A stretch of 64,000 nucleotides of DNA, taken from Arabidopsis thaliana (taxonomy: Eukaryota; Streptophyta; Magnoliopsida; Brassicales; Brassicaceae). This document shows positions 2,069-52,196 of this stretch, in pieces. The notes under the pieces are model-generated. The model had not been told where the DNA came from. It did no database searches and was given only the letters and a program-made list of their open reading frames with translations. The stretch covers positions 9,238,001 to 9,302,000 of the forward strand of contig NC_003070.9 of the NCBI RefSeq assembly GCF_000001735.4, written 5' to 3'. Within the stretch, counting starts at the first letter, position 1. The number at the start of each line of letters is the position of its first letter. The position numbers and the translations under genes are program-made.

Positions 2069-2122
2069 ATTGATAAATGTTTTTTTTTTTTTTTTTTTGT
2101 CACTCAAAGATTGATGAATGTT
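2069..2122 (-). mobile_element. tiny poly(A)-tail insertion with target duplication
   Basis: Repeats ATTGATAAATGTT (2069-2081) and ATTGATGAATGTT (2110-2122) flank a T run followed by GTCACTCAAAG. Read on the minus strand the insert is CTTTGAGTGAC followed by about 17 A. This is the form of a severely 5'-truncated retroposon with a 13-bp target-site duplication (one mismatch). Confidence 0.5.
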
Positions 2123-3141
2123 AACATAGGAAATTTCAAGAGTAATTTTTTATTTTGTAATTTGCAATTTGGGTAATTTTGGCGTATTTAGAAAGTTTTT
2201 TACTACATAATGTTCCATTGAGAACTATACTACATGGTTTACTGTTTATGACGACATAAGGTAAACGGTAAGCAATGTATAGACTAAAGAGGATTGCTAA
2301 TCATCTCCACTAAATATTATATTGACTACTGCGAATAATGGATACTGTGAACATGACGATGGACGGTAAAAATTGTATTTAAGTTAACCACCGTAATAAT
2401 GGATCATCCACTGCAAATAGTAAGTGTATCGTTCACCGTGTACATTGTTTAACAATGTAACTGATAAATTAGGAAACTCATATTACTCTCATCTTATTTT
2501 AGGAATATCACATATTATGTAATCATGTTAATTGATTCATTGTACTCTTTACTGTAGATAATTGAATACACGGAGAAGGGAACCAAATATTGTGCTTCTC
2601 AGTTCTCATCATTCAACAAGGTATCAGAAACTTTTCTCAAAACGTAATTTTCTCTAAGCCGCCATACTAAAACTTAATTGCTCTCCCTTTGTTTTTTAAT
2701 TCTACGTCTCTCACCCTCTGTTTTTTTCCTCTAAATTCTTTTCTTCTTCCATCAACAGTAACATCCACCGTAAAACAATGTATCGGTCACTGTGAACCGT
2801 GTGTTGCTCACTAGAACAGTGTGGAAGTGCATCATTCCACGCAAAAAGTGTATCGTCCACCTGTTTTCTTTCTGTTGTATTTGTTTATATTATTTTGATG
2901 TTTGTTTTTACCACAACCACTTTGACCCCTTTATGATTTTAATTTAGAGGAAAGACTTTTTGTACATGTGAATTGTTATGCAATTATTTTATTTTAGTCG
3001 TCAATCTGTCCACCCAAGAGCCCACCACAACAAACATCTTTTTCAATTGTATTTCAACTCTTTTGATTTTTCTCACGTGAAATTATATCCACTTGCAAAT
3101 CTTCATGTGACTCAATATCCCTCTCTCTATAGTCTATATAC

Positions 3142-3159
3142 ATATATATATATATATAT
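3142..3159. repeat. (TA)n microsatellite
   Basis: Short alternating TA run in the proximal upstream region of PHO1;H7. It may overlap the core promoter. Confidence 0.9.
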
Positions 3160-3434
3160 GAATATAAGGGACTTGTTGAATAAACTCCGAGTTTTTGCAT
3201 GGTTGGCAAATTCTTATAACCCCACCCTTTGTTCCTCTTACACGCTTTCTAGTTTATTTCTTCCTCTAATAGCTTTTCTTTTTGTCTTCTTCGTAATTTG
3301 CTCAAAATCTGTTCTTTACTCTGCAGCCAACTTTTCACTGAGGCTGGGAGAGACAGAGATTGATCTCAACTAAAAGAGGCTTTTCATTAGATCTGGATTC
3401 TTGAGTTTTACAAAGAAGTCCAGAGAAACCAAAT

Positions 3435-6400
3435 ATGAAGTTTGGGAAAGATTTTGTTAGGCAGATGATTCCAGAATGGCAACAAGCTTACATGGATTAT
3501 GCTGGTCTCAAATCTATTCTTCAAGAAATCCAAACTTCACGGAAAAGATCAGAGAGACCAGGTATCTTGAAACGCAAGCTATCTGGTAGCCGCAACTTCA
3601 GCGGCCTGACAAAGCGGTATAGCCGCACCGCCTCGACTCGGGAACCAGAAATTCAGGACATTCTGGTGCACGCAACTACTGGGGATGATGGGTTTGAGAG
3701 ATACGAGACAACCATCTTGGAAGTTGCAGAGGCGGGGAGAGAGTCAGAGCTTGCGTTCTTTAAAACCCTAGATCTTGAATTCGATAAAGTTAACCATTTT
3801 TACCGGTCTAAAGTGGAGGAAATGGTGAAGGAGGCAGTGGTTTTGAACAAACAAATGGATGCTCTCATTGCTTTCAGAATCAAAGTTGAGCGACCTTCTT
3901 CTTCGTGGAGCTGCTCTGAAACAGTTTCAGTGGATATGAATGCCTTAGATTCTAATGACCAGAGTAAGTTGTCAGATATTTTTTGTTACTAAGTTTAGCT
4001 GAAATGACACAAAGTTTAAAATCTTTTGTGTTTATTTTTGAAGGGAATACATTAGCTGAGGAGATGGGAATCAGAGTAGAGGGAAATGGATCCAACGGTG
4101 GAGATTCAACGAAAGAGAGTGTACCACAAGTGTTAAGTGTTCTTGAACGTATCAGATTAAACAAAACTCAGGAAACTCCTCTCTCCACAATTAAAAACGT
4201 CCTCAAGCTCTCTAACCAAGAAGAGCTCAAATTCACTAGAGAGAATCTCAAGAAAATAGAAGAACGGCTTAAGAATGTCTTCATCGAGTTTTATCGCAAG
4301 CTTCGACATCTCAAGAATTACAGGTAATGTTGCTTCTTAAGAATATATGAAAAAGTTAAAAAAAAAAAAGATTGTTTGATTAAATCCATGCTTTGTTCTT
4401 GATTTATTCAGCTTCTTGAACACTTTGGCTATTTCCAAGATCATGAAAAAGTATGATAAGGTAACTCTTGATTTAATCAGATATATACAATATTATTTTC
4501 TTTAGACTTAATAATATGTTTTTGCTGAATATTTTCTATGATCAGATTGCTTCAAGAAGTGCAGCAAAACCATACATGGAGATGGTTGATAAGTCCTACC
4601 TCACTAGCTCTGATGAGGTTACTACAATTATCTTTACACAAACCTTATTCTTTTCTTTCAATAAAACTAAAAAAAAAAACCTGAGCTCAGTTACATTTTA
4701 ATAGATCAACAAGCTTATGTTGAGAGTTGAGTCAACCTTCGTTGAACATTTCGCCGGTTTGAATCGAAGCAAAGGAATGAATCTCTTAAGACCAAAAGTA
4801 AAGAAAGAAAAACATCGAATAACGTTTTCCACTGGTAACTAAAAAAATTTCTCAAATCGAAACCGGTTTATTTACATTAGTTCATGACTAATTAAACAGA
4901 ATTCCTCAAATTAGTTCTTATCTTTGTCAGGCTTTTTCGTCGGTTGCACAGTCTCTCTAGTGGTAGCTCTAGTCATGTTTATCCATGCTCGTAATATAAT
5001 GGGCGCAGTTGGACATAAAGTCTACATGGAGACAATGTTCCCTCTTTACAGGTTCAAAACCAAAACATATATATATAGTTTAACTCTCTAATTGATAACA
5101 TTTTTTTCTTGCTGACAAGAAATGTTTTTTTGTACCATAATTTCAGTTTATTTGCATTTGTGGTTCTGCATATGATCATGTATGCTTCAAACATATACTT
5201 TTGGAAGCGATATCGAGTGAATTATCCGTTTATATTCGGTTTTAAAGAAGGAACAGAGCTTGGTTATAGACATGTTCTGCTTCTAAGCTTTGGTCTCGGC
5301 ACGCTTGCTCTCTGCGCTGTTCTAATAAACCTTGACATGGAGATGGATCCTAACACTAATGACTACAAAACCATGACTGAACTTCTTCCCATGTTTATTT
5401 TGGCTGTAAGTTGTTCATCATAATAACCACGAGAATCTTAAGTACATTTTGTTACTAATGTAGTAACACATTTCGTTTGTACTATGTTTTGCAGCTAGTG
5501 GTAGCTATTTTGTTCTGTCCTTTCAACATCTTTTATCGGTCAAGCCGCGTCTTCTTCCTCATGGTTGTCTTCCGCTGCATTGCTGCGCCACTCTACAAGG
5601 TAATATACTCATGCAAATCCTTTTTTTTACGCGGGGTAAAACATCGATAAAAAATCTTAATTTTTACTCTGAATTTGCAGGTTAATCTTCCAGATTTTTT
5701 CTTGGCAGACCAATTAACAAGTCAGGTTTGTGTGTTCTCATAACATTCTTCTAACTCCCATTTATATGTTTTCAAAATGTTTCAACTCATTAATCAACTT
5801 TCTTTTTTTTAGGTTCAAGCACTAAGGAGTTTGGAGTTTTACATATGTTACTATGGTTGGGGAGACTTCAAGCACAGGCAAAATACTTGCAGATCAAGCG
5901 ATGTATACAGTACATTCTACTTCATCGTTGCTGTGATACCTTACTGGTCACGTTTTCTTCAGTGTGTTCGAAGATTGATCGAAGAGAATGATTCAAGTCA
6001 AGGCTACAATGCTCTCAAGTATTTATTAACCGTTGTGGCTGTTTGCTTGAGAACAGCTTACAGCTTTAACAGAGGAAACATCTGGAAAATCTCTGCCTGG
6101 GTTTTCTCGGCATTGGCAACTTTTTACGGCACATATTGGGACATTGTTTTTGATTGGGGATTACTTCACAGACCATCTAAACATTTGTTGAGAGAGAAGC
6201 TTCTTGTTCCTCACAAAGCCGTCTACTACGTTGCAATCGTGAGAACTATGAAAATCAAAAGAACAGTACAATTCCTGATTGATGGTTTCCTTATAAGTTT
6301 TGTTTCTGCCTCTTCTTCTTTGTAGGTCTTAAACATTGTGTTGAGGATGGCGTGGTTGCAGACTGTGCTTGATTTCAATTTATCGTTCTTACATCGAGAA

Positions 6401-6650
6401 ACGATGATTGCTCTTCTTGCTGCTCTTGAGATCATACGTCGTGGTATCTGGAATTTCTTCAGGTAAATTTTTGACCACGACACGATCACTAAATTCTCTT
6501 TAAACCATTTTTTACTCAAGGGTTCTTCCTTTGACGACTTGCGAACACAGGTTGGAGAATGAACACTTGAACAATGTGGGAAAGTTCAGAGCATTCAAAT
6601 CAGTTCCGTTACCATTCAACTACAACGAGGAGGAAGATCGAGATAGTTAA
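3435..6650 (+). CDS. PHO1;H7: SPX-EXS phosphate exporter family protein PHO1;H7
   Basis: Twelve exons splice in frame: 3435-3963, 4044-4323, 4412-4460, 4546-4617, 4705-4834, 4931-5051, 5147-5405, 5495-5599, 5681-5725, 5813-6238, 6326-6462 and 6551-6650, giving 750 aa. The N-terminus starts [15 protein letters not shown] and continues as an SPX domain to about residue 330, ending in the basic stretch SKIMKKYDK typical of the inositol-pyrophosphate-binding surface. Several hydrophobic segments follow (from [16 protein letters not shown]). A C-terminal EXS domain from about residue 530 contains [10 protein letters not shown] and [15 protein letters not shown]1 relatives export phosphate across endomembranes or the plasma membrane; the specific role of this member is inferred from the family. 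No break was seen. Confidence 0.95.
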
Positions 6651-7279
6651 CTCTTAGATTAGATCTAATCAAGGTTTCTCCAAAGAGTGGGGTTTCAATT
6701 TTGTTTAGAACTTGCTTGTCTCTGTTTGTAATCATTAAAGAGAAGGAAATGAGCACAATGAGGCTTCGGATATAACTATCTTACCTAGGGTTATCATTGT
6801 GCTCGCTATCACAATGTGCCCAAATCAGATCTCAAACCAAAATTAGTCCATAAAACTACCAAACACGAGCTACTTTGACTATGATAAACCAAAAATTACC
6901 CTTGAAATGACACTCGAGTAAACTAAGAGGTTATTGAGACAGCGAGCGTACATGACGAGAGCTTCAAAAGCTTGTATAGATGGTTTCACGTGAATATATT
7001 TATCCATTTCGAATATATTTAGCTGTTGAATCCAAATCTAAGAGCACAAATAAAAGTGAATGAGATAATCCTACACTTTGCAACAAGCAATGACAATAAC
7101 ATAATTTGTCAAGAGAAGCATGAGAATATTGATCTTGCAGCATACAATAATTTGCCAAAACAGCATCAACTAAGTCTTTTATCATTCTAGTGTACTACTA
7201 AGAAAGCCAAGATTTTATCCTCTTGATATCCAACAAGGAGTAATCATATTGGAAACCATGACCAGTTGTTCGAATTGCC
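6651..7279. other. spacer between the converging 3' ends of PHO1;H7 and bL32m
   Basis: Holds the two 3' UTRs and no gene. An 11-bp perfect inverted repeat, GAGCACAATGA (6751-6761) and TCATTGTGCTC (6794-6804), lies about 100 bp after the PHO1;H7 stop. Confidence 0.6.
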
Positions 7280-8555
7280 TTACTCAGTAGGGTTTAGCCG
7301 CTCACCGCTGCAACAGAAGAAATGTGGCAGCTTGACTCGCCCGCAACTCCTGGAAACACAAAAGAGTGTGCACTTAAACTGGCGGCATATATAAAATTCT
7401 GATACAAGTGCCCTCACAATGAGATCATGAAAACAAAAGAAGTTTTAAATCAAACATATACCAAAACCGAACAACTAGACTCATATTTTGTACCATGTTG
7501 CACACAAGTAGGTCTTTCGTCAAACATGTTAACGATACACAGTTCTAGTTACTCAAGTGCAGTTTATACCAAGTGATAGTTAGGAGAGACAATGAATCAC
7601 AAAGCATATGCATTTATTCTTCAGCTGTTGCTGCAGCAACAACAACCTAGATAAACCTAACAGAATTTTTCTATCACAGCCTCAAAACTAAACACCCATA
7701 CCAAACTCAACCTAATGGATATATTAAGAAGCATCAAACAGATAAAACAAGAAGAGAAGCTAATCTGCGGACAAAAAAAAAAAGAAAAAGAAGAGAAGCT
7801 AATCTCTTACCTGCAACGGATGATCACAGGAACAGGCTTAAGAGCCTTTGGACCATTTCTTATCCCTCTCTTGTGTTTAGAAATCTGCATGTTTCATCAA
7901 GAACAGCTTCAATTAACACTATCATTCTCCAAGGAGCCATTAAAAATTACACATTTTCATTCACATGTGAACCTAAAGGAAGTAAGGAACCAAATCAACT
8001 TAAACCCAAAGATACACAAGCAAATGGAAAAACAATGGACACTCAAAAACACACAAAGAGACAACATTTCTTAGATAGATTCTATAGAAGAAGCAATCTA
8101 GCACTTAGTATCTCAATTGCATAATCAACTAATAAGTCCTATAGTGCACCTTCCTAAAACCCTAGATAAACCCTGACTCCGTCAAAAAAGCTAACCCTAG
8201 ATACCACAATAAATCAAAACCCTAAGAAATTTTATCATTTCAGAAGTGGAAAACGAAAGGAGAAAACTAATTAAGGGACTGAGAGTTCTTTGACCTTCTT
8301 CTTAGGCACAGCCATTAGCTCCATGGATCCATTAAAAGCAAAACTAGGAAGCCCGAACCCGAAGCTCTTTTCTTCGATCAAACCCGGTTGATTCTGATCG
8401 AACTCAGGTAAAACCAGCGGCGGCATAGAAATCGGGCGATCAAAAGCTCCGTTCAAGGGGGAAGGCATCGCAGCGACATGACTTAAGCTTCGGGTTTCCA
8501 AAATGCGACAGGACTCAACCGCGGCGCGTTTTAGCGATGTCAATCTCAACGCCAT
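7280..8555 (-). CDS. ribosomal protein L32 family, mitochondrial bL32m
   Basis: Three exons on the minus strand, 8555-8295, 7884-7811 and 7349-7280, give 134 aa. The N-terminal 80 residues form an arginine- and serine-containing presequence. The mature L32 core starts at MAVPKKK and runs through ISKHKRGIRNGPKALKPVPV. Two cysteine pairs (CRSC and CC, the latter in HFFCCSGE) form the zinc-ribbon-like end of bacterial-type L32. It should be a structural protein of the mitochondrial large ribosomal subunit; a mitochondrial rather than plastid location is inferred, since plastid L32 is plastid-encoded. Intron 2 contains a small poly(A) insertion close to its donor, and intron 1 contains four telo-box motifs. 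The locus is At1g26740 by recollection. Confidence 0.9.
7749..7805 (+). mobile_element. tiny poly(A) insertion with 18-bp target duplication in bL32m intron 2
   Basis: AAGAAGAGAAGCTAATCT occurs perfectly at 7749-7766 and 7788-7805. Between the copies lie GCGGAC, eleven A and GAAA. The right copy ends four bases from the GT donor of intron 2 of the minus-strand bL32m gene, so the duplication sits right beside a splice site. Confidence 0.6.
8157..8224 (-). promoter_or_regulatory. cluster of four telo-box motifs in bL32m intron 1
   Basis: AAACCCTA at 8157-8164 and 8217-8224, AAACCCT at 8168-8174 and AACCCTAG at 8193-8200. Telo-boxes are enriched near the transcription starts of plant ribosomal and translation genes. 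Their position in intron 1, about 330-400 bp from the bL32m start codon, fits such a role, but no binding can be seen from sequence. Confidence 0.5.
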
Positions 8556-8856
8556 TGATGCAGTTTCTCCAAAGCTATAGCTGACGGAAGTGAAGACTAG
8601 TAGAAGAAACCCAAAAGAGGTGAAAATTTATCAAGGCAAATGTATTTACGAAACGGCTGCGTTTTGACATACGAACCATACAATTGCTCTGTTAACCGAT
8701 TTTAGACCGTAATTTAGAGTGTGATGTACCCGGTTTAATTCATGAACCATGAGGTTTTATCAAATCGAGCCATTTCTGAAACCCTTGTGTCTTCGTCGTC
8801 TCTGGTAAAACAATAACAGATCAAGCGAAGAAGAAAAGTGAAGAAGCTCAGCAACA
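8556..8856. promoter_or_regulatory. shared divergent promoter of two mitoribosomal genes
   Basis: The start codons of bL32m (minus) and the mS23-like gene (plus) are only 301 bp apart, so both leaders and core promoters lie here. A telo-box-like AAACCCTT occurs at about 8779. I found no TGGGCC site II element in this segment. Confidence 0.65.
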
Positions 8857-15615: not shown

Positions 15616-16196
15616 AAGAACCAAAATTTTATTCTCCTGCTTGACGGTTATATCTTTAGCCAAAAGGATCGGTGCTTCCAAGATCTACAAAGACACCTCG
15701 TGACAAAGATGCCATCGCTTCGACGAAGATGCTCCGTTTATGCCTTTGTAGCATACGGTTTGGCCCTCAAGAAAACATTCTTAAATGCTTGTTTTGCTTC
15801 TTTGAACAGTTTATTTTCCCAAAATTCCTTCTAGTGAGTGGTATGGATGATCAAGACTTGTCGGTATTGCAAGGTTTTACTTCCCGGCTTATAGTCCCCT
15901 TTGCCTTTGTGGTAGAGTTTGTAACCTTTGGGGTTACTATGAATGCGATCAAGCAAGAAGTAGTGAAGCTTGTACTTGTATGTCGATCTCTTATGTGCTC
16001 TTTCTTTGATTTGTATCTTATCTATCATTCGTTTAACCATTTTTTGGTAACCTTTTTGGCAATTGTTGCCTTTTTTCTTTGCATTTCCTTTGTTATGGAT
16101 GTATTTTCTTCTCTTGTATTAGAGGTTGCTGTGACTCTTTAATCTAATGAAAGTCATATGTTTGCCCAAAAAAAAAAAAAAGAACCAAAATTTTAT
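15616..16196 (+). mobile_element. 5'-truncated retroposon (LINE-type insertion) with TSD
   Basis: The 17-bp direct repeats AAGAACCAAAATTTTAT at 15616-15632 and 16180-16196 are identical and flank a 547-bp insert ending in about 14 A. The last bases before the tail (TCATATGTTTGCCC) follow a TTAATCTAATGAAAG segment, like the 3' ends of Arabidopsis LINEs. The insert is largely open in one frame (15672-16142) but has no RT or RNase H motif that I recognise. It may be a LINE 3' end or a LINE-mobilised transcript. The perfect TSD suggests a fairly young insertion. Confidence 0.8.
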
Positions 16197-17024: not shown

Positions 17025-17070
17025 CCGTTATATTAAGTTTTTTTTTTTTTTAAATCCGTCATATTAAGTT
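17025..17070 (-). mobile_element. tiny poly(A) insertion with target duplication
   Basis: CCGTTATATTAAGTT (17025-17039) and CCGTCATATTAAGTT (17056-17070) differ at one base and flank a T run plus AAAT. On the minus strand the insert is ATTT followed by about 12 A. Confidence 0.5.
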
Positions 17071-26621: not shown

Positions 26622-26661
26622 ATACAACTATTGATTTTTTTTTCCTCAAATACAACTATTG
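26622..26661 (-). mobile_element. tiny poly(A) insertion with 12-bp target duplication
   Basis: ATACAACTATTG is repeated exactly at 26622-26633 and 26650-26661. The 16-nt insert is, on the minus strand, TTGAGG followed by nine A and T. Confidence 0.5.
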
Positions 26662-29600
26662 TTTTGTCTCAATTTCTTTCACTTTTTAAGATTCTTACTT
26701 AAAGTGACCTTTTCCATTTGCTTGGTTTCTTATTTTGGTTTTAGAGTTAATATTCTACACGTATAGTACCTACTCAACTAGTTTGTTATGGACTTTTAAG
26801 TCATGGTGGTGCTCAACAATGCACAAAACGACTTTCGTACATAAATGTGAAATGTGCAAACGATGTTGTTGCCGGAAGACTAATATTTCGGAGTGAAATT
26901 TTACATATAGAGAAATCTTTGGTAAAAGAATATTAAAGAATGTATATACGTTTGCAAAACCAGTCACAACTTATATGTGGCTCTATTAATCAAGATTTGA
27001 TATATACAAAACAAAGTGACTAATTAACAATGACTCAAACGAACCACTTGTGAACAAATTCACAAAATCTTTCGAAGTTTATTGTGACGTCCCTAAACTA
27101 TTATATATCGTCTCGTGACTCCAAATTTAAATTTTCTTTGCTTGGCAAAATCGACCATGCGTATTTTATACATTTAGAGGATGATGTATGGAAGTAGATA
27201 ATGGAGAGGTACTTTAAATTGTTCGTTAGATTAGGTTGTTATGGACGTTGAGTTATTTATTATAGACATATGATAATGTGAACGTTAGCCAATTCGTGTT
27301 AGATTATGTTTCCTTGCGTTGAACAGATCGAAGAAGAAGGGATCGGAGCATTAAAGCATGTGAGGGTGGGGCAGGTAAGTGTCCTTTAAACAATAAGAAG
27401 TGGGTCTTAGCATTAGCTTTCTGACATCTTATTCTTACCCATACTTACACCCATTACTTTTCAAAGATTTAACAAATATTATCATGCAAAGAGTACTTTT
27501 TTGTCCTTTCTTTAATTCCTTTAATTGCGACACTCTTAACGGACTTCGGTTAAGACAGCCTCCATACCCATATGACATGCATCACAAATCTAACGACTAA
27601 CATTACTATTATATGTTATACATCAAACAAGAGAACTAATGTGTACGTATAATTGTACGCCATTACATCTCTAATTAAAGCAACAAGACCGTTTGACACA
27701 ATACTAGAAATCTTGATCGTTAGAAGACTCTCCATCGTTAAAACATCTTCATGTATAGCCTATATATTATGTATAATACTTTCCATTGTTCAGCCTTCTC
27801 CGCTCCAATATATACCTTCTTTTAATTTCTATGCAAACTTTCCCTGCTTTTCTTATGTACTATATTATTTCACTCTGAACAATTAGTCTCCTATATAGCA
27901 GTTTGAAACTCCAAACGCTTCATATTGTGCTATCAATTAAATTTGATACTAAAAAAATTACACGTTTAAGGGAAACAAAAAATAAGTGATAAAAAATTAT
28001 AATTTTGTACAATAAAGTTTAATTATATATATTGCATATCAACAATATTGGATTTCTGGCATTACCTCTTAAGATCCACATTGAGGATTGACCTGTTATT
28101 CAGAAGAAATCAATATTGACACTTGAAAAGATACCTTGACGAAGAAGACCAATTTGAATTGAGGTTTTAATTTCTTTCCGTGGTGACACAATAATAAATA
28201 TTCGATCTCTAGAATATAACCTTTGATTACGTAAGTCATTTTTCTTTTCCAACTGATTACGTAAGTCTTGTTGCGCCGTAGCAGAATATTTTCTACTACT
28301 CAAATAGCTAAAATAAAATTATTCAAAAATATAATAAAATCAGATCACTATTGTTTCAAATACCGCCATGACTATTCGTAACAACTAAATTTTCTCATCT
28401 TCATAATTAAACCGCTCAGACAAAAACATTTCATGCAATAGAAAATGAAGACAAATTTAGACGAACCCATGAGTTGGATGTCGAAATTAATTGGTAGGGT
28501 TATGAATTTTAATTAGAGCAAAGAAAGGATTCAAAACATGGCTCTGTCAAGGGAACACACCTAACAGAATCTCATGGATTAGCCTTTGTCTTCTGCTGCT
28601 CCCTTACGCCCCACTACTTGTCACATTCCTTCGTTTTTATTCTTCAATAAATAATTTAACTTTTCAAATTTTATTTTTACCCTCAATGTTTTCTTCATTA
28701 TTGTCCTTCCATATAATTTTATAATATATACACACAGAAAATTTCGTACCAAGTTCAACAGAGCCTTAATTTATAGGCATGATCTCAGGTCGGGTCATAT
28801 TCCCCACCTTCATATAAAATTGGTTAGAACCGACTGTTGACCAAAATATTAAATCTTATTCACTGTTAATTTTCTTTGTAAACTTAGAAAAAAATTTCCG
28901 TTAAAAACATGTAAGTTTTAAAATATATACATGAAAACACTAAAACATGCCCCAAGAATTGAAACCCCTAATTAGTTGAAGGGACCGGTTAAGTTAAGAA
29001 TTTTGTTGAACTAACTCCGGTTATAGAAACAAAGAAGTAGTGTGATTGTAACCAAAAATACGAATGAGGTTAAGAAAAGAGGGTAGAATTTAAGACAAAC
29101 TTTATTGGTGGATGTGAAAATAGATATAGGGGCAAAGGAGGCTATGAGATTAGATGGGTCATTGATTCATTCATCTTTGAAAATTGAGAGAGATAGACTT
29201 TACTGTTTGGTTACCTTTCACGTCATCTCTTTTTGGAAACTCCAAAAACAGTATGAGTTTGTGTGTGTCTTCGTGATCTGTTCCCACCATTTATCCTCTC
29301 TGTCTCTCCACTTCCTTTCATTACTCTCACTTTCTTTCACTTTCTTGTTCACTTCTGTTTCCTCACTAGTTTCTCCTCTTTTTAATCACCAAATCGGCAC
29401 CTTGTTGCATTAATTACTACAAAAATATATTTACACTCAAACCAAATCAGACCTAATTGAATCTGAACTGATTATTGGTTAAACACTTTGAATTTTCGCA
29501 AAAGCATGTGTAGAACAAAATTAATACTTCTTATTTTCAGTTATTTTATAAAAACATTAGTTATCTTAATAGTTGAAAAATCTCGTTGATAGGACGATTA

Positions 29601-33032: not shown

Positions 33033-34463
33033 ATGTTTATAACGGAAAAACAAGTGTGGATGGATGAGATCGTCGCAAGAAGAGCTTCTTCTTCTTGGGA
33101 CTTCCCTTTCAACGACATTAATATTCATCAGCATCATCATCGTCACTGCAACACAAGTCATGAGTTTGAAATCTTGAAGAGTCCTCTTGGAGATGTAGCG
33201 GTTCACGAAGAAGAGAGTAATAATAATAACCCTAATTTCAGTAACAGCGAGAGTGGTAAGAAGGAGACAACAGATAGTGGTCAGTCTTGGTCCTCGTCGT
33301 CTTCAAAACCATCGGTCTTGGGGAGAGGACATTGGAGACCAGCTGAAGATGTTAAACTCAAAGAGCTTGTCTCCATTTACGGCCCACAAAACTGGAACCT
33401 CATAGCTGAAAAGCTTCAAGGAAGATCTGGTAAGTTAAATCAAAACCTTATTTATTTTCTATTTCTTTTGACAGCAAGTTAAATCAAAACCTTATAGATC
33501 TTCAAAATTTCATCAAAACCAGTTTGTTTGATTCATCTGGATCTGTCAAGTTCTTAAGATCCGGTGATAAAATCAATTTTTGTTTTTATTAGTTTTCTTG
33601 GTCTTTAGCCTTCTATGTCCAATCTAAGTCCTAACGTAATTTTTTTTGAGTTTTATTAACTTAATCTTGATTGTTTTTAAAGGGAAGAGCTGTAGACTAC
33701 GATGGTTTAACCAATTGGACCCGAGGATAAACCGAAGAGCTTTCACAGAAGAAGAAGAGGAGAGGCTGATGCAAGCACATAGGCTTTATGGTAACAAATG
33801 GGCAATGATTGCGAGGCTTTTCCCTGGTAGAACTGATAATTCAGTGAAGAACCATTGGCATGTTGTCATGGCTCGTAAGTATAGAGAACACTCTTCTGCT
33901 TACCGTAGGAGAAAGCTTATGAGTAATAATCCACTTAAACCTCACCTCACCAATAATCATCATCCTAACCCTAACCCTAATTACCACTCTTTTATCTCCA
34001 CTAATCATTACTTCGCTCAGCCTTTCCCCGAGTTTAATTTGACTCATCACCTGGTTAATAATGCCCCTATCACGAGTGACCATAACCAGCTTGTGTTGCC
34101 TTTCCATTGCTTTCAAGGTAGCCTATAGCTCTTCCTCCTCTTTCAATAGTTTTTTCAATTGTCTTTTGCATATTTTGAACTCTTTTTTGGTTTTTGTTAT
34201 ATCTACAACGTTCAGGTTATGAGAACAATGAACCTCCGATGGTTGTGAGTATGTTTGGCAACCAAATGATGGTCGGCGATAACGTTGGTGCCACGTCAGA
34301 CGCGTTATGCAATATTCCGCACATTGACCCTAGTAACCAAGAGAAACCGGAGCCAAATGATGCAATGCATTGGATCGGAATGGACGCGGTAGATGAGGAG
34401 GTGTTCGAAAAGGCTAAGCAGCAACCACATTTTTTCGATTTTCTTGGCTTGGGGACGGCGTGA
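33033..34463 (+). CDS. MYB117: R2R3-MYB transcription factor MYB117/LOF1
   Basis: Exons 33033-33429, 33683-34117 and 34216-34463 give 359 aa. The N-terminal ~95 residues are low in complexity, with histidine, asparagine and serine runs. R2 begins near [19 protein letters not shown] and R3 near [20 protein letters not shown]; the usual tryptophans are present, with the common replacement of the first R3 tryptophan. The [14 protein letters not shown] end of R3 is typical of the LOF1/MYB105 group, which controls lateral organ separation and axillary meristem formation. It acts in the nucleus as a DNA-binding regulator. The large upstream spacer may carry its regulatory sites (inference). Intron positions interrupt R2 and the C-terminal region. 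Confidence 0.95.
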
Positions 34464-35101: not shown

Positions 35102-35147
35102 TAGTTTTGGTTGGGTTAAAAAAAAAGGAAAAAAATTAGTTTTGGTT
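35102..35147 (+). mobile_element. tiny poly(A) insertion with 11-bp target duplication
   Basis: TAGTTTTGGTT is repeated exactly at 35102-35112 and 35137-35147. The insert is GGGTT, nine A, GG, seven A and T. The local TTGG-rich context makes chance duplication possible. Confidence 0.4.
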
Positions 35148-38874: not shown

Positions 38875-40957
38875 TCATCTAAAAATATTTAAGATATTTG
38901 TATTTTCCCTTTCATTTACTTTAGTAATAATAAAATAAAATAATTTTGTGTTTGAATTTGTGGTTACCTATTTTTAGTTTCTCATGTGTGATAATAGATT
39001 AGGTTATTCTTATAACCATGAAAATCTGAATTCACGTCAAAGACACATTCATCACGACCTTAATGGCAAGGCGATCTTGTGATAATGATTCACAGTTTTG
39101 TTTATTTGGGTATATCGCCTTCCCCAATCATATGAATATGGTATGGTTCACCGCTTTATTCATGTAAATCCGGAAGAAGTAAAAAAACCTTATCATCGAC
39201 ACCTAACATGATTTCTTGCTTCAAGCGGCGAATGTTCTTGTGCACATACATTTTGACCACAAGGAAGCAATTCTTCACCAATTCATGGAAAGCATAAAGA
39301 TCGCGGTCAATACTACAGCTAATGTGTTCGTAAGAATATTTCTCATTGTCTTCGAGAGTTCAAAGTAATTAGGTGTTTGTATATAAGATAGACCTCGAGA
39401 TAAATATAGCAGTCTCCCATTTCTGTTCTGATTGATAACTCTTTATTGTTGCGATAAATGGTGTACCACCAAGTATCTTACTAATCAACACTACCAAAAA
39501 TATAAATTGCAATGTGATTAGTAGTTTTTGGTATGCACATGAGTTGATTGATACAAGGCATATATATATATATATATGACATACTACGGCTAATGACCAA
39601 GAACATGCAAAAGAAATGTCTGAGATATCTAATAACAATTAAGTCACATAAGAGTAAATAAACATATACCCGATAATATTAATGTCCTAGAGAGATCTAT
39701 AATCAAATTGGAGTAGCACAGGAAAGATGTATAGTCATCAAAGCATACATGTCAAGAAATACGAGGTAAACAAAAAGAAAAGCAACGTCATATCTGTTAA
39801 GAATAATTTTGAGAAAATCAATTACCATGTCAAGAAATTTGATAAAACTAACATTTCTATTTTCCTCATTTGCAAACAAATATTTGTTGCAGTTTATAGA
39901 GCAAATTATGCAGTGTCCTAAGATTATTCAGCCAATACATAGGCACAACTTACAATGTATTTTTTAATTAATATTTTAAATCATTTAGTATTTAAGAAAC
40001 TCGAAAATAGAAAAACAACTAACGTTTGGTAAACCCGGTAAAACCATATAATGGTGGATGAATCATAAGGGACCAGAGCTGAACATCAATCTAACCGGTT
40101 GGTCTGCGTTTGGAAACACAACAATTGCAACAATAATATTATATATAATAGGAATATGACCTCTTCAGAAATCGACAATTCATCATTTAAAAATAAACAT
40201 ATATAAGCACCAAAAAACGGAAAACGGTAAACTAATCAAGTTAAAATTATTTTAACATCATGATTTGTATGAACCAAATTTAGAAAAACAAATAAATATT
40301 CCAAAAAGCAATACTAGATGGAAGAGATTATTAGGATCATAAAAAAAAAAGTACGAGAAGATGTTAAAACATGCTTATTTACAACACAAAATAAAAGAAC
40401 ATCCGCAAGTATGAGTATAGCATGTTGAAAATTTTGATAATATTTATGGATAAGAATAAATGTGTTTTTTATAATTAGAAGATATATAAATAACAATGAT
40501 ATTAATAAAAAATATAAATAAAAGATTTAAGTTAATCAGAAGATTGTAAAAATAATTTGTTTGATATAAATTGAATTTTTTACTAAATTTAGTTATGAAT
40601 AATTGAAAGACAAATAGCTTTATAGGTCTTTTTTTTTGGAACAAAAAATAGCTTTATAAGTCAAAAATAGAAAATGCCATAAATATAACCATTTGTTGCC
40701 AAAACACATTAATAATTAACAAAGCAAAAATATAGATTTTAATTAGTATGGTTATAATTAACTAATTATTGGTGAACATGATTAGACTCCATATATTTAT
40801 CGCCAAGACATTGTTATTAGTTATAAGCTAAAGATTTTCACATCCTTTATCCCAAAAAATAATTTTTCTTTTTAGTTTAGAAAAGACATTATTTGTTGTT
40901 TCATCTATAAATTTTGCTTCCGAATGAACAAAGGCTTAAACTAAAGCCACCACACAC
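38875..40957. other. spacer between S1 copies 1 and 2
   Basis: The first ~330 bp (3' flank, to about 39200) and the last ~290 bp (5' flank, from about 40670) belong to duplicated flanks shared by copies 1 and 2. A tiny poly(A) insertion lies at 40612-40662. A TA run is present at about 39560-39578. No gene is supported. Confidence 0.6.
40612..40662 (-). mobile_element. tiny LINE-like tail insertion with target duplication
   Basis: AAATAGCTTTATAGGTC (40612-40628) and AAATAGCTTTATAAGTC (40646-40662) match except at one base. The 17-nt insert read on the minus strand is TTTTGTTCC plus poly(A), which resembles the 3' ends of Arabidopsis LINEs. Confidence 0.55.
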
Positions 40958-43408: not shown

Positions 43409-43799
43409 AGATTGACTGGTATATCAGATTAACAGATGAAAAGACAAATTATGAAATATCGGAATCAATAAAAAGATGGCACTTTTAAATTGAATATATA
43501 TGTTTTTTTTTCAAATGCCAAAAATTAATATTTAGTAGATGAATAAAGTGTCTTTAGTTTAGTTATAATTTCAAAACCTTTACTTGAAAATACATCATTA
43601 TAAGCTTTATTATCTACAGATTTTCACATCTTTTTGTTTAATTGACAAATTTCACATCATTTTAAATATGACTAATTATATGGTATATTAAATGTTTTGT
43701 CAAGGAAATAACAAGAAGATAATAGTTCACAATTTTTTTAATTCATAAATACTACTTCACAGAAAATCCAAGTATATTAAAAACCAGCAAAATACATCC
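43409..43799. other. spacer between S1 copies 3 and 4
   Basis: This 391-bp segment is the duplicated intergenic unit. It includes the 3' flank with a T run and, from about 43570, a close copy of the segment before copy 3, with TTCATAAATACTAC as the likely TATA region near 43741. Confidence 0.7.
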
Positions 43800-44255
43800 A
43801 TGGCTTCCTTAACAAATCACCAATTCATTTCCGTGCTAATCACAACTCTAGTTATCTTCAAAACGTCATTAGCGTTTGAAAACTATACATCTGTCGATGT
43901 TGATCTTCCGTTTGCACCTAAACATGTTATAATCATCAACACATTGAACCCACATGAAAGATTGGTCGTGCACTGTAGGAATAAAGGGAAAGATCTAGGG
44001 GTTCATGCGTTAGAACCTCAAGAACAAATAGATTTCAGGTTTCGGGTCAATCTACGCAGAACAACAACATACACTTGTACATTCTCGTGGCCAGGAAATG
44101 CAAAGACATTTGATATTTTTAGAGTAGATAGAGACGATAATTCAAAAAGTACATGTGGAATATGTAGAGAATGTATTTGGTATATTTGTGAGACAGGTCC
44201 ATGTCGTGCTAGACGCGATGGAGGGGCTCCTTTCTGTTTTTCATGGACATCTTAG
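43800..44255 (+). CDS. S1-type self-incompatibility protein homologue (SPH), copy 4
   Basis: Intronless, 151 aa: signal peptide, sequon NYTS at N28, S1 motifs LVVHCRNKGKDLGVHA, FRFRVNLRRTTTYTC, FSWPGNAKTFDIFRVDRDD and CRECIWYICETGPCRARRDGG. Eight cysteines follow the signal. The additional one in KSTCGICREC is unique to this copy, next to the pair-specific cysteine in WYIC, so an extra disulfide is possible. It is otherwise very close to copy 3. The locus is At1g26798 by recollection. Confidence 0.93.
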   Translation: MASLTNHQFISVLITTLVIFKTSLAFENYTSVDVDLPFAPKHVIIINTLNPHERLVVHCRNKGKDLGVHALEPQEQIDFRFRVNLRRTTTYTCTFSWPGNAKTFDIFRVDRDDNSKSTCGICRECIWYICETGPCRARRDGGAPFCFSWTS

Positions 44256-44838
44256 AGATTGAATGGTATATCATATTAACAGATGAATAGACCAATTGTG
44301 AAATATCGGAATCAATAGAATAACGACACTTTTAAATTGAAGAGAAATGTTTTTTTTTTCCAAATGCCAAAAAACTAGTATTAGATAGATGAATAAAGCT
44401 AAGTTTGTTTAGTTTGGTTATAATTTCAAAACATGCAAGAAAAATTAAATAACCACGTGTTATTTTTATGTTTTATCATTGATCACAGTTTTATGAATAA
44501 TAACTAAGTACTCATCAGAATTGTTGAAAACGTGAAAAAACTGCATACCAATCAAGCTCTTAATCATCGTAGAATATTTCTGGTATTTTTCTTTCATTTC
44601 GTTGTATCCGAATAGTATTAAATAGACAAATAAGCTGTTTGAAATTGTTGTTACATATTTTTCACTATTTGTCACTAAAACCTATATAAGCCTATTTACA
44701 TCCCCATGCAATTTCATATACGTATGTTTTATATTCTCTCTAAATCCAAGACGGGCTTTGATTATTCTACAGCAAAGTATTTGAGTGTCTCTTTCCATTT
44801 CTCTTACTTTATCAGTTGTATACTTGTATAGTATAAAG

Positions 44839-45752: not shown

Positions 45753-45798
45753 AAAGAACAATAGACCTTTTTTTTTTTGGTAGGGAAAGAACAATAGA
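45753..45798 (-). mobile_element. tiny poly(A) insertion with 13-bp target duplication
   Basis: AAAGAACAATAGA is repeated exactly at 45753-45765 and 45786-45798 around a 20-nt insert. On the minus strand the insert is CCCTACC, eleven A and GG. Confidence 0.5.
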
Positions 45799-45924
45799 TT
45801 TTAACTTCCTTTCTCCCCTCCTAATGAGTAATTAAATGATATATAATCAATTTTTCCCATCTACATATAAATACTACTTTCGAAACAAGGAAAAATATTG
45901 TGTCACAAACCAGTAAACCCTTCC

Positions 45925-46380: not shown

Positions 46381-47186
46381 AGGCTCTTTTATATATATTT
46401 TATGGGATTTTAATTGCTTTACAGTGTGACAAAAAAAAAAAAAAAAAATTGCTTTACAGTATTTGTTGCATCTTATTTTCCTTCTCGTGGTTTATAATGG
46501 TAATAAAATAAGCATATTTAAGGGTTACTATATCTTGTGAATTGTGATCATAGACTAAATTTCTTATACACCTACAACATTTTTAATCTCTTGGTTACAA
46601 ATGTTTGTTGGCGTTTTATTACATGCTATGATATAGTGTAGGGAAATTCAAAGAAATGCAGAGAAGTATGGAAATGGAGTTGTCGAGATAATTAAGGAGA
46701 AGTAATGAGCTTGATAAACTTCAGTCTATTATAATTTTCATGGAAACTTTTTGTTTTGACATTATTGGATCATATTCTGTCTAACCCCACTTCAGGTCAA
46801 AGAAGAAAGCGTTTACACAAAACTTCCAAAAATATAGAAAAAATATGTATTCAAAAAGTTGTGTGAAATCCGGAAGTACTCGAGGAAAGGGAAACAAATA
46901 TTGTATGTAGTCAAATACTAAAACGTAAAATGAGAAAAAGGTAAATAAATAAAAGAAAAAGAAAGAGGAAAGAGTCAAGAGAGCATATATTCCCAACTAA
47001 TGTTTCCAGTTATGTTGTGAGAATAAGATTTGAAGAACAAGCGTAAAAGCAAACTCCAACAACTACATGTTTTTAATCTCCATATCTGTGCAACAATCGT
47101 GAAAATAAAATCCTTCTTTTTAATCTTTATTGTGGCCAGAGTAATGTTTTTGCGTTTGGGATCATTCTTGATTGTTACTACAGAAC
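46381..47186. other. spacer between S1 copy 5 and the GARP-like frame
   Basis: Contains a tiny poly(A) insertion (46412-46460) right after copy 5. No other element or gene is supported. Confidence 0.55.
46412..46460 (+). mobile_element. tiny GTGAC-poly(A) insertion with target duplication
   Basis: AATTGCTTTACAGT at 46412-46425 is repeated at 46447-46460. Between them are GTGAC and an A run; counting the tail into the second repeat, the run is 18 A. The tail junction GTGAC-A(n) is the same as in the insertion at 2082-2109. Confidence 0.6.
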
Positions 47187-47579
47187 ATGGTAAATGATAA
47201 GAACCATAAGTCAAAGGAATCTAAGGAGAGATTGAAATGGAGTTGTGAGCTTCAAAACAGATTCATCGATGCTGTTAATCAACTTGGTGGGCCAGAAAGT
47301 TCGTCTCTATCTTCTTTGTCCTTCTGAAAACTCTTAATCAAGGAATCAAGAAGTGTTTGTGGTTTGGTCTTATGCACATTTCTTGATTGTTTTTTCATTT
47401 TTTTCTCTTTGTTATGTGTGATATCAGAAGTGATGCCTCAGGGTTTGATGAGGATTATGGAGATTCCTGAGCTTACTTTGTACCATCTTAAGACAAAAAA
47501 AGTTCATCAACCTTTTCCCAGAACAAGAACAAAAAAAGGCACAAGTTTTTTTTACAAAAGCTTCTTATGTAAATCCTAA
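47187..47579 (+). CDS. compact GARP/MYB-CC-like protein, possibly unannotated or decaying
   Basis: Two exons, 47187-47298 and 47428-47579, join in frame. They give an 87-aa protein starting MVNDKNHKSKESKERLKWS. It covers almost the whole GARP DNA-binding domain: RLKWSCELQNRFIDAVNQLG, GGPEKVMPQGLMRIME and PELTLYHLKTKK. The intron falls at the LGGP-[ED]-K position used by APL/MYR-type MYB-CC genes. The usual HLQKYR end is replaced by KKVHQPFPRTRTKKG and no coiled coil follows. Its stop (47577-47579) overlaps the stop of MPSR1 on the other strand. It could be a small DNA-binding or interfering protein, or a truncated pseudogene that still happens to be open. Expression is unknown. Confidence 0.5.
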
Positions 47580-48190
47580 TTCTCGGACTCAACACCATCA
47601 CTGTTTCCACCGTCCTGCGCAGAAAAATCTCTAATTCTCCGACCATCGTTGAAACTGAACCTAACCCAAATCTCATTCCCATCGTTTCTTTTCTTCCCAA
47701 TCTCATCTCCATCAACAGGCATCTCGTACCTACAAACAGGACACGACCCATGAAACCCTAACCATTTCTCTATACATCCACCGTGAAACCTATGCTTACA
47801 CGGCATCTCCTTCACCGTCTCCTCGGACTTCCACTCCTCCAAACAGATCACACACTCTCCTTCACAGCCATCAATCTCAACGATCGGCATCGCATCGATG
47901 GAAGCCTTGGACGCAGGAGGACGACCTTCCTCACGTGACTCCAGTAAGCTACGAAGCAGAGGATTCATTCCTGATGAGCCTTCGAGCACAATCATTCCTT
48001 GTGTAAAAGGGTTGACTAAAATGATTCTCTCACGCGATGAAGCAACATCATCATCATCTCCGTTTGATGATTCTTGATCAGAGAAGCCTAAGAGAAAAGG
48101 CAAGAAGAGATATAAATCTCTGTTCCTCAAAAACCTTCCGGAAACAGAGGATGTCTCTGTTCCAACTTCAGCTTCTTGTTCTGTCGCCAT
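47576..48190 (-). CDS. MPSR1: RING-H2 E3 ubiquitin ligase MPSR1
   Basis: Intronless, 204 aa from the ATG at 48190 (MATEQEAEVGTETSSVSG). The open frame extends three codons further to a TTG, which is not used as a start. A C-terminal RING-H2 finger contains ECVICLEEW, MPCKHRFHGGCIEKWLG and SCPVCRYEMP, with the expected C3H2C3 ligands. A segment MIVLEGSSGMNPLLRSLLES lies before the RING. From memory At1g26800 encodes MPSR1, a cytosolic ligase that recognises misfolded proteins; the sequence itself shows the RING E3 function only. It converges on the GARP-like frame with overlapping stop codons. Confidence 0.93.
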   Translation of the reverse strand: MATEQEAEVGTETSSVSGRFLRNRDLYLFLPFLLGFSDQESSNGDDDDVASSRERIILVNPFTQGMIVLEGSSGMNPLLRSLLESREEGRPPASKASIDAMPIVEIDGCEGECVICLEEWKSEETVKEMPCKHRFHGGCIEKWLGFHGSCPVCRYEMPVDGDEIGKKRNDGNEIWVRFSFNDGRRIRDFSAQDGGNSDGVESEN

Positions 48191-48861
48191 CGCAAACAAA
48201 CTATTGTTTTGAAGAAATTGGTCGTTTCAAGATTTAAGGGAGTTGCGTATGAATGTTGTGGAAAGATCTAGAAATTATTAACGCAGAAGACTTTTCTTCC
48301 CATGGGCCTAAAATAAATTAAGTTGAAGACAATGATTGATGTTATCGATATGCTTATCCATTAGCAAATATCTATGTTATATTTTTCTCTGACTCAACGT
48401 TATGATTTGTCTAAACTCTCCTCATTCCAGAGAGTTATACTTCAAGACGACGAAGGGTGTTTTTGGGAATTTTGAAGGCTGTTGCACATATTTATATGCA
48501 TGATGGTGGATAAGAAGAAAAGAAAAAGTTCCACTGGTTTCGGATCTTTACTTGAAGTGACACGATTCACTCCCTAGTGGATTACACGTAAACATTTGTG
48601 AAGAGTAAGCAATGACAATTGATTCATATCAAATTCTCAAAAGATAAAATATGCTCCTATTGTTATTTATCAGTTGAAAGTTTTAGTACATCTTTGTAAT
48701 ATACACACGTAAAAGTAAAACTAAACTGCAAATCTAGTCTACTTGTACAACAAACAAACAAAATCAAATATTTTGTGACCAAAGAATGAACTCTTTTCTT
48801 ATGTACCTGTGGAAGGACACGTGAACCAAAACGCAATGGTTGAAATATGTGCGTTCACGTT
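48191..48861. other. MPSR1 promoter and GALT1 3' flank
   Basis: A 671-bp spacer between two minus-strand genes. I see no RNA gene or repeat; it should include the MPSR1 leader and promoter and the GALT1 3' UTR. Confidence 0.5.
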
Positions 48862-51327
48862 TTACCATTCGCGGCAGCAAAGAGAGCGTTTGGTTTCTTG
48901 GTATTTACGCCAAAGGCAAGTCATTTCGGCAGGGCTTTGGTAATGAGCAACCACATAACCATCCTTGCATCCATCACTAATGATCCTTCCATCGTTTTCG
49001 TAATGAGGCTCGAGTCCATGTTTTGTCAGCTCAGCTATCCATATCCCCATTGCCACATCTTCTAGCTTAAACATCTATTCACAAATTTCAAAAATTTTCA
49101 CAATCCATTTCTATGTGAATCCGGAAATGTGATTGAATGGAGTTAGCATAGAGTAGTACAATACCTTTAGGTTTCCTTCTTTGAAAAGCTTACCAACCGA
49201 TTCTGCTATGTCACGAGATACAATGTAGCCTGGACCATGCGCCCATGGTGGATATTTCTCTTCAGGCCATTCCTGTTTTTTGAGTAGAAACTTCGTTAAA
49301 TGAATCAGAAATCAGTCTATTTGCAAACATAGCTATGTCAGATTGTGTTGTACCTCATAACTGATGTACCATTTGCTATCAGGGTTTCGAATAGGTTGAG
49401 AGTCGGAATTGATCAGTCCGTATATTAACCCGCGAGTGTTGTTGGTCATTGATAAAGAAAGTAACACTTCATCTACACGAACAAAGGCGTCATCATCCGT
49501 TTTCATGATGAACTTGGCTGAGTCAACCTCTGTCTGTTTAAAATATGACGTTAGTGAGGCAAAACAGTAAAGACTACTCAACTGTGGCTAGGAAGAAACA
49601 TGACAAAGACAACTATATTATTACCCCGAAGATGCAGATGGCTAGTGTTTTCCAACTGATGAGACTGTAATAATCAACAAAGGGCATTAGCTGAACATCA
49701 CCGTAAGTCCGAGCCTCGTTCCAGAGTTCCAAGTTAACAAGAGGACTTTTGTGCTGCATTACCAACCACAAAGAAAATCATCATTTAGAATTATGCAATT
49801 CCAACATACTCCTGATATTTTCAGAGAGGGAGAAAGCTTACAAGGCCAACAAAAAAGCGTACTGCAACTCTTCCAGATCTTACATCATCATACTGCATCC
49901 ATGTTCTCCTCACAGCCATCCGTCTTTTAAAATTGTTTGCAGTGGAGAAAACACCAATAACGAGATCCAGTGGCCTTAATGGTGAAAGGGTAGGTGATTT
50001 TAGTGCCTCTAGATCAACAACGTGCTCTGATTCTTCTGATGTGGGCAAACCGCTGGCAAGAATGGATATTAACCTAAAGTCACCTGTAATCCGTATTTCA
50101 CTAACAAGCCACGGTTCCAGTGTCTGAAAGACGAAGAACCCATATGAGACACTAAACATTTGATGGAAAATTGCTAAGAGCAGTAGAAAAATATATAAGA
50201 AGAGTGATGATATTACATCGCGGAAAGCAAATGAAGTTATATGTTTCCCATCAACTGTCATCTGCATTCCCTCTGTTCCCACCCTAAGTGTAGCAACCGA
50301 TAAGAAACCCTGCTTGAAAGGAAAGTATTTTTCATGTTTAGATGCTTCCCTGGCTACTGGAACTCCCCTTGAAGTGTTGGACTGCAAGCTAGTTGAAGAA
50401 GTTCGGTTAATTTCTCCACCAACCATCTTGTTGCATTCATCCAAGTCATCCACTGTGTATTATAATCATGTCAACACAGACTTATTCATGGAGGATCAAG
50501 TGACTACATTTATGTAAGCGGGTGAAACTATACTTGCATTCACCTTTCTTATTCATATCAGGATCAAATTTTGGACAGCGTTCCTCAGCTCCCCAGTCCT
50601 GAGATGCCGTCCAGCTGTTTTGAACAATCACAGGGTCTTCCGTCGATTTGTCACCAAGAAGCCTAACATTATAATGCACAATGATGGGTGGATCAGGCTC
50701 CCCTGGAAGCGGTTGTCCCGTTAGATCAATCCGAAAACTACCAACAAGACCATCTGGGATGCCAATAACTGTGATGGAGGAACCCTGAGTCAAACCACAA
50801 GGAATTTGCAACTTCAGACTACTCCCATCAGCTTCAGTAGCATTCATTTTGCTTAGAAACTGAGGACAAAGCTCCTCTTTTCCTTTCCTCGTCTGATTTT
50901 CATTAACATCAACTAGTTTCTTAGCTTCAACAGCAGACACAAGACTCTCCCAAACAATGCCAGCTTCCTTAATAGCATCAACTCCATTAACTAAACTCTG
51001 TGCATTATCAACAAGACTTTCCAAACGGTTCCAAGTAAGCAAAGGCTCTCTCTCTTCTTTAGACACATTCTGCTCAACAAACAAACCCGAGACAACAGCG
51101 ATATCATCACCAGATATCGCTTCTTGAGTATTCCTCGCTTCTTTCATAAAGTCAGGGAGAGTAATCCGCAGCCATTCCATAGGAAGAGTGGTGTTAGGAG
51201 TAACAACAACAGAAGCAGCAGCAGTAATATAAGGCTTTTCAACAGGAGTGTTCAAGTCTACATATCTATACACCGTCAAGAACATACACATTGATACAAC
51301 AAGAAGCCCTCCATAAAATCTCTTCAT
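48862..51327 (-). CDS. GALT1: beta-1,3-galactosyltransferase GALT1 (Lewis a synthesis)
   Basis: Seven minus-strand exons, 51327-50544, 50452-50217, 50123-49842, 49753-49625, 49533-49354, 49272-49165 and 49074-48862, give 643 aa. An N-terminal signal anchor (GGLLVVSMCMFLTVY) makes it a type II Golgi protein with a long stem. A galectin-like domain occupies about residues 175-375 (LQIPCGLTQGSSITVIGIP, HYNVRLLGD, TVDGKHITSFAFRD). A GT31 catalytic domain follows, with RRMAVRRTWM, the metal-binding DDD at 490-492 in MKTDDDAFVRVD, and YPPWAHGPGYIVSRDIA. GALT1 adds beta-1,3-galactose to N-glycan GlcNAc to build Lewis a epitopes. A 5' UTR intron is likely at about 51432-51778. Confidence 0.95.
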
Positions 51328-52160
51328 TTTTCACAGCCGAAAATCACTCAAACGAGAAATCGCGCGGCGAGATCATCAATATTCAATCTTACAGTACAAT
51401 GTAGCTATTTTTTAACTTCAATCAATCCCTGAAACACAAAAAAAAAAGTTATGGTTTTTAATCAACATAAGTCATTTTCAAATTTAAGTATAGATTCAGC
51501 AGAACCATGATAATGTTAGATTCACGAACTTTATACTAAATATTAACAAGATCCAAAAATATCATCAAAGCTTAACAATAAGAAGAAGAAAAAAAATCAG
51601 ATTTTTATCAGTTAAGTCTGAGAAAATTGAAATTCAACAAAATCACAATAGACTAGTTAAAATCACTAGAGACTAAAAAATCAGAAGTGCCCAGAATTGT
51701 TCTCACTTCATAGAAGAACTTACTAAACCAACTATATAAGAAAATCAAACACAGAGCAAAAATTGAAAATCTGCTTACAGGCCAAAGGGAAGCAAAATTA
51801 AGCAATGTCTGTTCCGGAATCAGAATCCGGTACACCGGCAAACAGAGAAGTAGAGACGGAAAGATTTGCTGATTGAAATGGGATTCAGATCTCCGAGGCT
51901 TTACTAGTTCGCTGCTCTTTGTCGTAGTATCGAAGCACCTTCCACCAGCAGAGAAAGCGAAGGTGGTTTCATGTTTCTTTCTATTTTTTTTTAACTGTAA
52001 AACAAGAACGAAAATTGTAAAAACTGTAGAGGTAAAAAACAAAACTGTAAAGTGAAGAAAAGTTACCGATAGTTCTTTAGCTATTTTCATACAAAATTAT
52101 ACACAAGGTACTCTAAGAAAATACACAGAAATAGTTTCTAACTTAATTCAATACTAATTT

Positions 52161-52196
52161 AGTAATTTACGACAAAAAAAAAAAAAAAAGTAATTT
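52161..52196 (+). mobile_element. possible tiny ACGAC-poly(A) insertion
   Basis: AGTAATTT at 52161-52168 and 52189-52196 flanks ACGAC plus an A run of 15-16. The repeat is only 8 bp in AT-rich DNA, so this is a weak case, but the -GAC-A(n) junction matches the better ones. Confidence 0.3.

Follow-up and report, generated by a model that had tools for sequence, protein, structure and literature searches.

The 64-kb window of Arabidopsis thaliana DNA analysed here (contig C1, positions 9238001-9302000, of an assembly of 119.66 Mb in 7 contigs) contains nine places at which a short direct repeat is followed by a few bases, a homopolymeric A or T run and a second copy of the repeat. This class of ultra-short insertions is in all probability the product of abortive target-primed reverse transcription by the machinery of plant long interspersed nuclear elements (LINEs) of the L1 type. 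The original prediction had already suggested that reverse transcription stopped almost at once at these sites, and flank-swap nulls, an empty paralogue of site 2, the bases preceding the tails at part of the sites and the polarity of the inserts support it. Mechanistically, an endonuclease would nick the target DNA, and the target 3' OH would prime on the poly(A) tail of an RNA that is either a LINE transcript or one mobilised by LINEs. The reverse transcriptase (RT) would copy some of this tail and, in most cases, 3-15 nt of the RNA 3' end before releasing. A staggered second cut and host repair would then seal the stub between target-site duplications (TSDs), mostly of 10-19 bp. We infer that synthesis stops because elongation fails early, a 3' hairpin perhaps contributing in the family with TACC ends.

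All nine predicted layouts are present at their predicted positions, and the boundaries of repeats and inserts were re-read. Oriented to the A run, each reads TSD1-X-A(n)-TSD2, where X stands for the 4-11 nt between the first repeat and the tail:

Site 1, 2069..2122, minus strand: repeats 2069-2081 and 2110-2122 (12/13 identical), insert 2082-2109; X is CTTTGAGTGAC, followed by A17; the repeat by itself is under the threshold of the scored search.
Site 2, 7749..7805, plus strand: TSD1 7749-7766 and TSD2 7788-7805, 18 bp and perfect; X is GCGGAC (7767-7772), tail A11GAAA (7773-7787).
Site 3, 17025..17070, minus strand: TSDs 17025-17039 and 17056-17070 (14/15), insert 17040-17055; X is ATTT, followed by A12.
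Site 4, 26622..26661, minus strand: TSDs 26622-26633 and 26650-26661, 12 bp and perfect, insert 26634-26649; X is TTGAGG, followed by A9T.
Site 5, 35102..35147, plus strand: TSDs 35102-35112 and 35137-35147, 11 bp and perfect, insert 35113-35136; X is GGGTT, followed by an interrupted A tail.
Site 6, 40612..40662, minus strand: TSDs 40612-40628 and 40646-40662 (16/17), insert 40629-40645; X is TTTGTTCC, followed by A9.
Site 7, 45753..45798, minus strand: TSDs 45753-45765 and 45786-45798, 13 bp and perfect, insert 45766-45785; X is CCCTACC, followed by A11GG; CTACC-A(n) is also the 3' end of RT-bearing LINEs.
Site 8, 46412..46460, plus strand: TSDs 46412-46425 and 46447-46460, 14 bp and perfect, insert 46426-46446; X is GTGAC, followed by A16.
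Site 9 (weak), 52161..52196, plus strand: 8-bp repeats 52161-52168 and 52189-52196, insert 52169-52188; X is ACGAC, followed by A15; under the threshold of the scored search.

The anatomy is as it had been described: both orientations occur (A run on the plus strand at sites 2, 5, 8 and 9, on the minus strand at sites 1, 3, 4, 6 and 7), five repeats are perfect over at least 11 bp (sites 2, 4, 5, 7 and 8) and four X end in GAC. At sites 2, 4, 5 and 7 the first A run is separated from the second repeat by extra bases, partly non-A. Two further spaced repeats of 14 and 20 bp (window 28224-28267 and 33432-33495) enclose interrupted A-rich tails on the minus strand and are possibly older stubs that fall under the A8 cut-off.

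The layouts are far more frequent than expected by chance. Counts rest on 264-348 kb sampled from a single A. thaliana assembly, including a 200-kb sample of twenty 10-kb stretches at fixed round coordinates on C1-C3, mostly in the arms. Perfect spaced direct repeats (at least 11 bp, spacer 5-40) contain an A8 or T8 run in 6 of 17 cases in the window and in 5 of 34 in the 200-kb sample. Among random 30-mers the corresponding shares are 2.4% and 2.1%. A scored search of the 232 A8 runs in window and sample yielded 13 TSD matches with a score of at least 18, six of them in the window (sites 2, 3, 4, 6, 7 and 8), against a mean of 0.4 per 232 A8 runs in a control with right flanks swapped between runs. 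Site 5 enters the perfect-repeat count only, the stricter search having missed it because its A tail is interrupted. A count no higher than chance had been named in advance as evidence against the idea; both window and sample counts exceed the swapped-flank controls. TSDs of 7-20 bp, a feature of L1-type insertion, are found in the scored A8 search and in the GTGAC and CTACC sets, flank-swap nulls applying to the A8 and CTACC searches; sites 1 and 9 are not significant alone. That chance repeats in AT-rich DNA, together with slippage of A runs, produced these sites is hardly credible: sites 1 and 9 do fail the scored search, but the flank-swap nulls (the one above and that for CTACC ends below) refute this explanation for the class, single weak sites excepted, and site 2 has an empty paralogue.

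This paralogue emerged from genome searches with joined flanks (22 complete queries and one partial). A locus on contig C3 (L052) aligns with site 2 across the junction, matches the joined flanks at 143 of 184 positions, and carries one copy of the repeat (17/18 identical) with the insert absent. The empty site with a single target copy, a feature of L1-type insertion, is hence seen at site 2 only. A second paralogue of site 2 (L053) also lacks the insert but is of little weight, its target having diverged; the alignment of a third row, next to L020, is confined to one flank. A separate paralogue search over sites 5-8 returned none that spans them. Within window 7749-7815 the site 2 insertion adjoins CTTACCTGCAAC, which on the minus strand resembles a splice donor (GCAG/GTAAG), and the stub may therefore lie just within an intron, a few bases from its boundary.

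The inserts have a fixed polarity. Among the 16 sites not selected for GTGAC, X exceeds the non-A bases on the far side of the A run in every case, and a non-A trailing base is absent in 11; poly(A) at the 3' end beside the 3' TSD is again a feature of L1-type insertions, and the order X-then-A is the polarity of target-primed reverse transcription. The search that supplied some of these sites favours this order, since its limit was 30 nt for X but 8 nt for the opposite side of the run. A mirror-geometry control admitting up to 30 nt on the other side gave 12 rows with a score of at least 18, of which 11 were known sites (including site 5) re-found because of the loose gap rule. The single new row of opposite polarity was L016 2823, an A11 run with a 14-bp repeat, one mismatch and a score of 18.7. 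In an orientation-blind list of repeats, judged by eye, 11 of 11 with an A8 run have X-then-A polarity.

Polarity also bears on DNA repair as a source. Patch-mediated spaced tandem duplications consist of spaced direct repeats and filler, and poly(A), a LINE 3' end and a fixed polarity are not expected of them. If double-strand-break repair with patch synthesis had made the present sites, the A-rich filler would be incidental, and spaced repeats without an A8 run are indeed common (11/17 in the window and 29/34 in the sample, some of them coding or tandem). Against this, 11 of 51 spaced repeats hold an A8 or T8 run where about 2% is expected, the polarity is the same in 16 of 16 sites, and X repeats the 3' ends of LINEs and retroposons, contrary to a filler lacking fixed polarity or LINE 3' ends. 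Break repair is accordingly very improbable as the origin of the class.

Several X motifs are enriched before A runs genome-wide relative to the reversed pattern: GTGAC-A11 (33 vs 12), TGTGAC-A7 (105 vs 24), TTTGAC-A9 (281 vs 63) and CTACC-A9 (137 vs 23). Six of 15 TSD matches, four of them sites picked in the original prediction, have GAC directly before the tail, against 8 of 217 other A runs, and C precedes it in 11 of the 15. When 30 of the 33 GTGAC-A11 loci were examined, nine proved ultra-short with a TSD, in addition to site 1 under the threshold; two of these ten are the window sites 1 and 8. L043 was counted as ultra-short although its best-scoring repeat gave a 47-nt insert, three copies of the unit being present. 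GTGAC also terminates long retroposons, namely L038 (1,103 bp, 16-bp TSD), L050 (678 bp, 14-bp TSD) and the pair L034 and L048, which are 87% alike over 768 bp. The X of site 1 has TTTGAGTGAC in common with the 3' end of the 1.1-kb L038 retroposon, which strengthens the case for this site. Of five further copies of L034, three are accompanied by a listed TGTGAC-A7, located at the match or a short way beyond it, and two are not. L034, L048 and L050 are about 0.7 kb long; a CTCTCTTCTCTCTC tract lies close to their 5' end, and their 3' end is TTGTGAC-A(n). So far, long retroposons in which an RT is yet to be shown are the only elements linked to the TGTGAC end.

The other two motifs lead to RT-bearing LINEs. 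Two CTACC-A ends and one TTTGAC-A end follow RT domains of non-LTR type, in the same orientation, at distances of 1,560, 1,924 and 1,871 bp, respectively, compared with random expectations of 0.09 and 0.08 for CTACC and TTTGAC and with 0 and 0 upstream; the test covered 100 of the 137 CTACC places, 100 of the 281 TTTGAC places and 68 RT matches, namely the long ones from a set of 150 that had been scored out of 757 candidates. A LINE 3' end beside the tail, as in L1-type insertions, is thereby found for CTACC and TTTGAC ends. L008 is a 480-bp insert that matches zf-RVT with E 7.9e-5, short of the Pfam cut-off, ends in CTTCTACC-A11 and has a 19-bp TSD with one mismatch. In a sample of 20 CTACC-A9 loci (every fifth of 100 listed, with site 7 swapped for a neighbour), nine are ultra-short with an X of 6-11 nt, where the flank-swap null is 0.035 per 20; L062, whose X has a length of 0, and the low-complexity locus L072 were not scored as ultra-short. 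L057, a candidate LINE end 3.97 kb from the RT, looks like another ultra-short insertion with the X CCACCCCCTACC, its repeat being read by eye with three extra bases before the second copy. Among the eleven CTACC stubs, site 7 and L057 included, three (GCCTACC, CCTACC and CCTACC) match a hairpin-bearing LINE end over the whole of X, and other subfamilies or junction bases must therefore explain the others. Apart from the tail the inserts consist of 2-20 nt, and they contain no body of a Sadhu element or short interspersed nuclear element (SINE). By the features tested, the stubs belong to L1-type target-primed insertions and work like them.

Insert sizes set the stubs apart from longer insertions. 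A scan of 317 A8 runs in 348 kb used one threshold (TSD score of at least 24) for inserts of up to 1,400 nt, leaving aside L027 and L028, which duplicate the window, and the 28 GTGAC runs used for ascertainment. The bins 0-15, 15-30, 30-60, 60-150, 150-400 and 400-1400 nt held 7, 2, 0, 2, 1 and 4 inserts with a null of at most 0.3 per bin. The row at window 43503 (815 nt) was dropped because its repeat belongs to a longer duplication in which the A run is included, and 15 inserts were kept: 2, 5, 6, 7, 8, 8, 8, 15 and 20, then 79, 123, 341, 480, 535 and 974 nt. Nine of the 15 are thus at most 20 nt long (7 of 12 without the window) and none measures 21-78 nt; if lengths followed an exponential whose mean is that of the six longer ones, nine or more of 15 at up to 20 nt would have a probability of 6e-9. 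The empty range cannot easily be attributed to selection against long inserts. On another view the stubs are ordinary 5'-truncated LINEs, the smallest members of a single continuous range of lengths, and no special early stop is needed. Longer copies do exist (L008 with 480 bp and the inserts of 79, 123 and 341 nt); the lack of any insert of 30-60 nt, with three of 60-400 nt against nine of up to 20 nt, nevertheless makes this an improbable account. The 20 CTACC loci agree, having no clean TSD with an X above 11 nt within about 60 nt upstream apart from one weak low-complexity row at 23 nt. The size distribution is not a smooth 5'-truncation tail. Two longer arrangements in the window may be recorded here: a 535-bp poly(A) retroposon (15616-16196; A14), which ends in GTTTGCCC and lies between perfect 17-bp repeats AAGAACCAAAATTTTAT, and, read by eye at 43450-44400, a repeat unit containing an A run that flanks both sides of an 815-bp stretch and resembles terminal repeats or a local duplication.

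A GGGAG...CTCCC hairpin precedes TACC-A6 at 17 genomic places, against none for the reversed pattern; its base lies 10-11 nt from the tail in 11 of 11 distinct strings, the search permitting 7-13, and the X of CTACC stubs (6-12 nt) ends at or just short of the hairpin base. Predicted folds are significant for L054 (z -3.2) and L055 (z -3.9). These observations invite the idea that a 3'-terminal RNA hairpin sets the early stop by blocking or anchoring the RT. As the explanation of the class it is nonetheless unlikely: the fold of L061 is not significant (z -0.9), the CTACC LINE L008 and seven GAC-ending ends have no significant hairpin (z 0.0 to 1.1) with GAC stubs equally short, covariation at two inner pairs is weak (shuffles equal it in 11% and 4%), and most X lack a full match to a hairpin LINE end. 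Since the GAC ends and L008 do without it, the hairpin cannot be the sole cause of the early stop. A general failure of early elongation is likely, and a hairpin block in one lineage is possible but unproven.

Several observations weigh against abortive target-primed reverse transcription or blunt its support. Sites 1 (12/13 bp) and 9 (8 bp) fail the scored search on the repeat alone, and only one of the 22 complete joined-flank queries returned a readable empty paralogue. X is matched to no source at sites 2-6 and 9; the CTACC stubs other than the three full matches share 5-7 nt of 7-12 with a hairpin LINE end, five of these coming from the search pattern itself. GAGTGAC-A7 is not enriched (14 vs 11 reversed), and none of the 100 TGTGAC-A7 places listed (of 105) lies behind an RT match, which leaves TGTGAC as the end of RT-bearing LINEs without support. 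Where the base immediately 5' of the first repeat is not A, it is T in 14 of 21 cases, an only marginal and not significant enrichment (P 0.06) in the same direction as a bias reported for Sadhu and Arabidopsis SINEs in PMC2848041; in the test for TT/AAAA the first TSD bases are confounded with the tail. Finally, the size scan is blind to inserts longer than 1,400 nt.

Abundance can be gauged outside the window, which was singled out because sites had been noticed there (six by the scored search in 64 kb). The 200-kb sample contains six ultra-short sites by the same search once L012 4979 is set aside for its simple repeats, about 30 per Mb, from which a rough extrapolation gives some 3,600 scars in the genome (Poisson range about 1,300-7,800); PMC2848041 puts LINE-related elements at fewer than 1,500. 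A bolder proposal, advanced tentatively as a possibility short of probable, is that most completed target nicks by A. thaliana LINEs abort at a checkpoint within about 12 nt of the poly(A) tail, set by a 3' hairpin in one lineage. Sealed stubs would then outnumber annotated LINEs, form a large, unannotated record of endonuclease activity and be a notable source of A-run microsatellites.

Catalogues of non-LTR elements rely on a recognisable body, and stubs whose whole insert is mostly 14-35 nt would escape them; the study of human and chimpanzee insertions in PMC2912911 kept only those of at least 50 bp. Hidden scars may outnumber the mapped LINE elements of thale cress. If they number in the thousands, estimates of LINE activity in a small plant genome would need revision, part of the A-run microsatellites would find their origin, and the scars would serve as dated insertion markers and as an in vivo view of where reverse transcription fails, making the cause of 5' truncation testable. 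Among the matches listed in literature searches, no title or abstract opening mentions ultra-short scars in plants, subscription papers being mostly outside that scope; within this scope, three things seem to be new, namely a distinct class of ultra-short insertions, the large numbers in which it probably occurs, and the spacing of the hairpin in Arabidopsis LINEs.

The stubs resemble several known systems. Sadhu elements, as presented in PMC2848041, have a poly(A) tract, TSDs of 7-16 bp and a mobilisation by LINEs that its authors infer, and full elements of about 0.9 kb, a body that the stubs lack. As a source of TGTGAC ends Sadhu was rejected for the loci compared: by eye, L034, L038, L048 and L050 are at no position of Table 1 in that paper. 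According to PMC3747384, L1/SINE pairs of monocots have a LINE 3' hairpin near the end, as do the TACC ends described here; that description concerns maize and sorghum, whereas the present ends are A. thaliana TACC-A(n) ends with a spacer of 10-11 nt. Arabidopsis mRNA retrocopies of L1-like origin possess poly(A), TSDs and a TTAAAA-like target and, unlike the stubs, comprise whole mRNAs (PMC4838847). There are also the 5'-truncated insertions of L1 and plant LINEs, with which the stubs share the 3' poly(A), TSDs of 8-19 bp and 3' ends partly common to RT-bearing LINEs, and from which they differ in having almost no body, an X of 2-20 nt and a size gap to the longer inserts.

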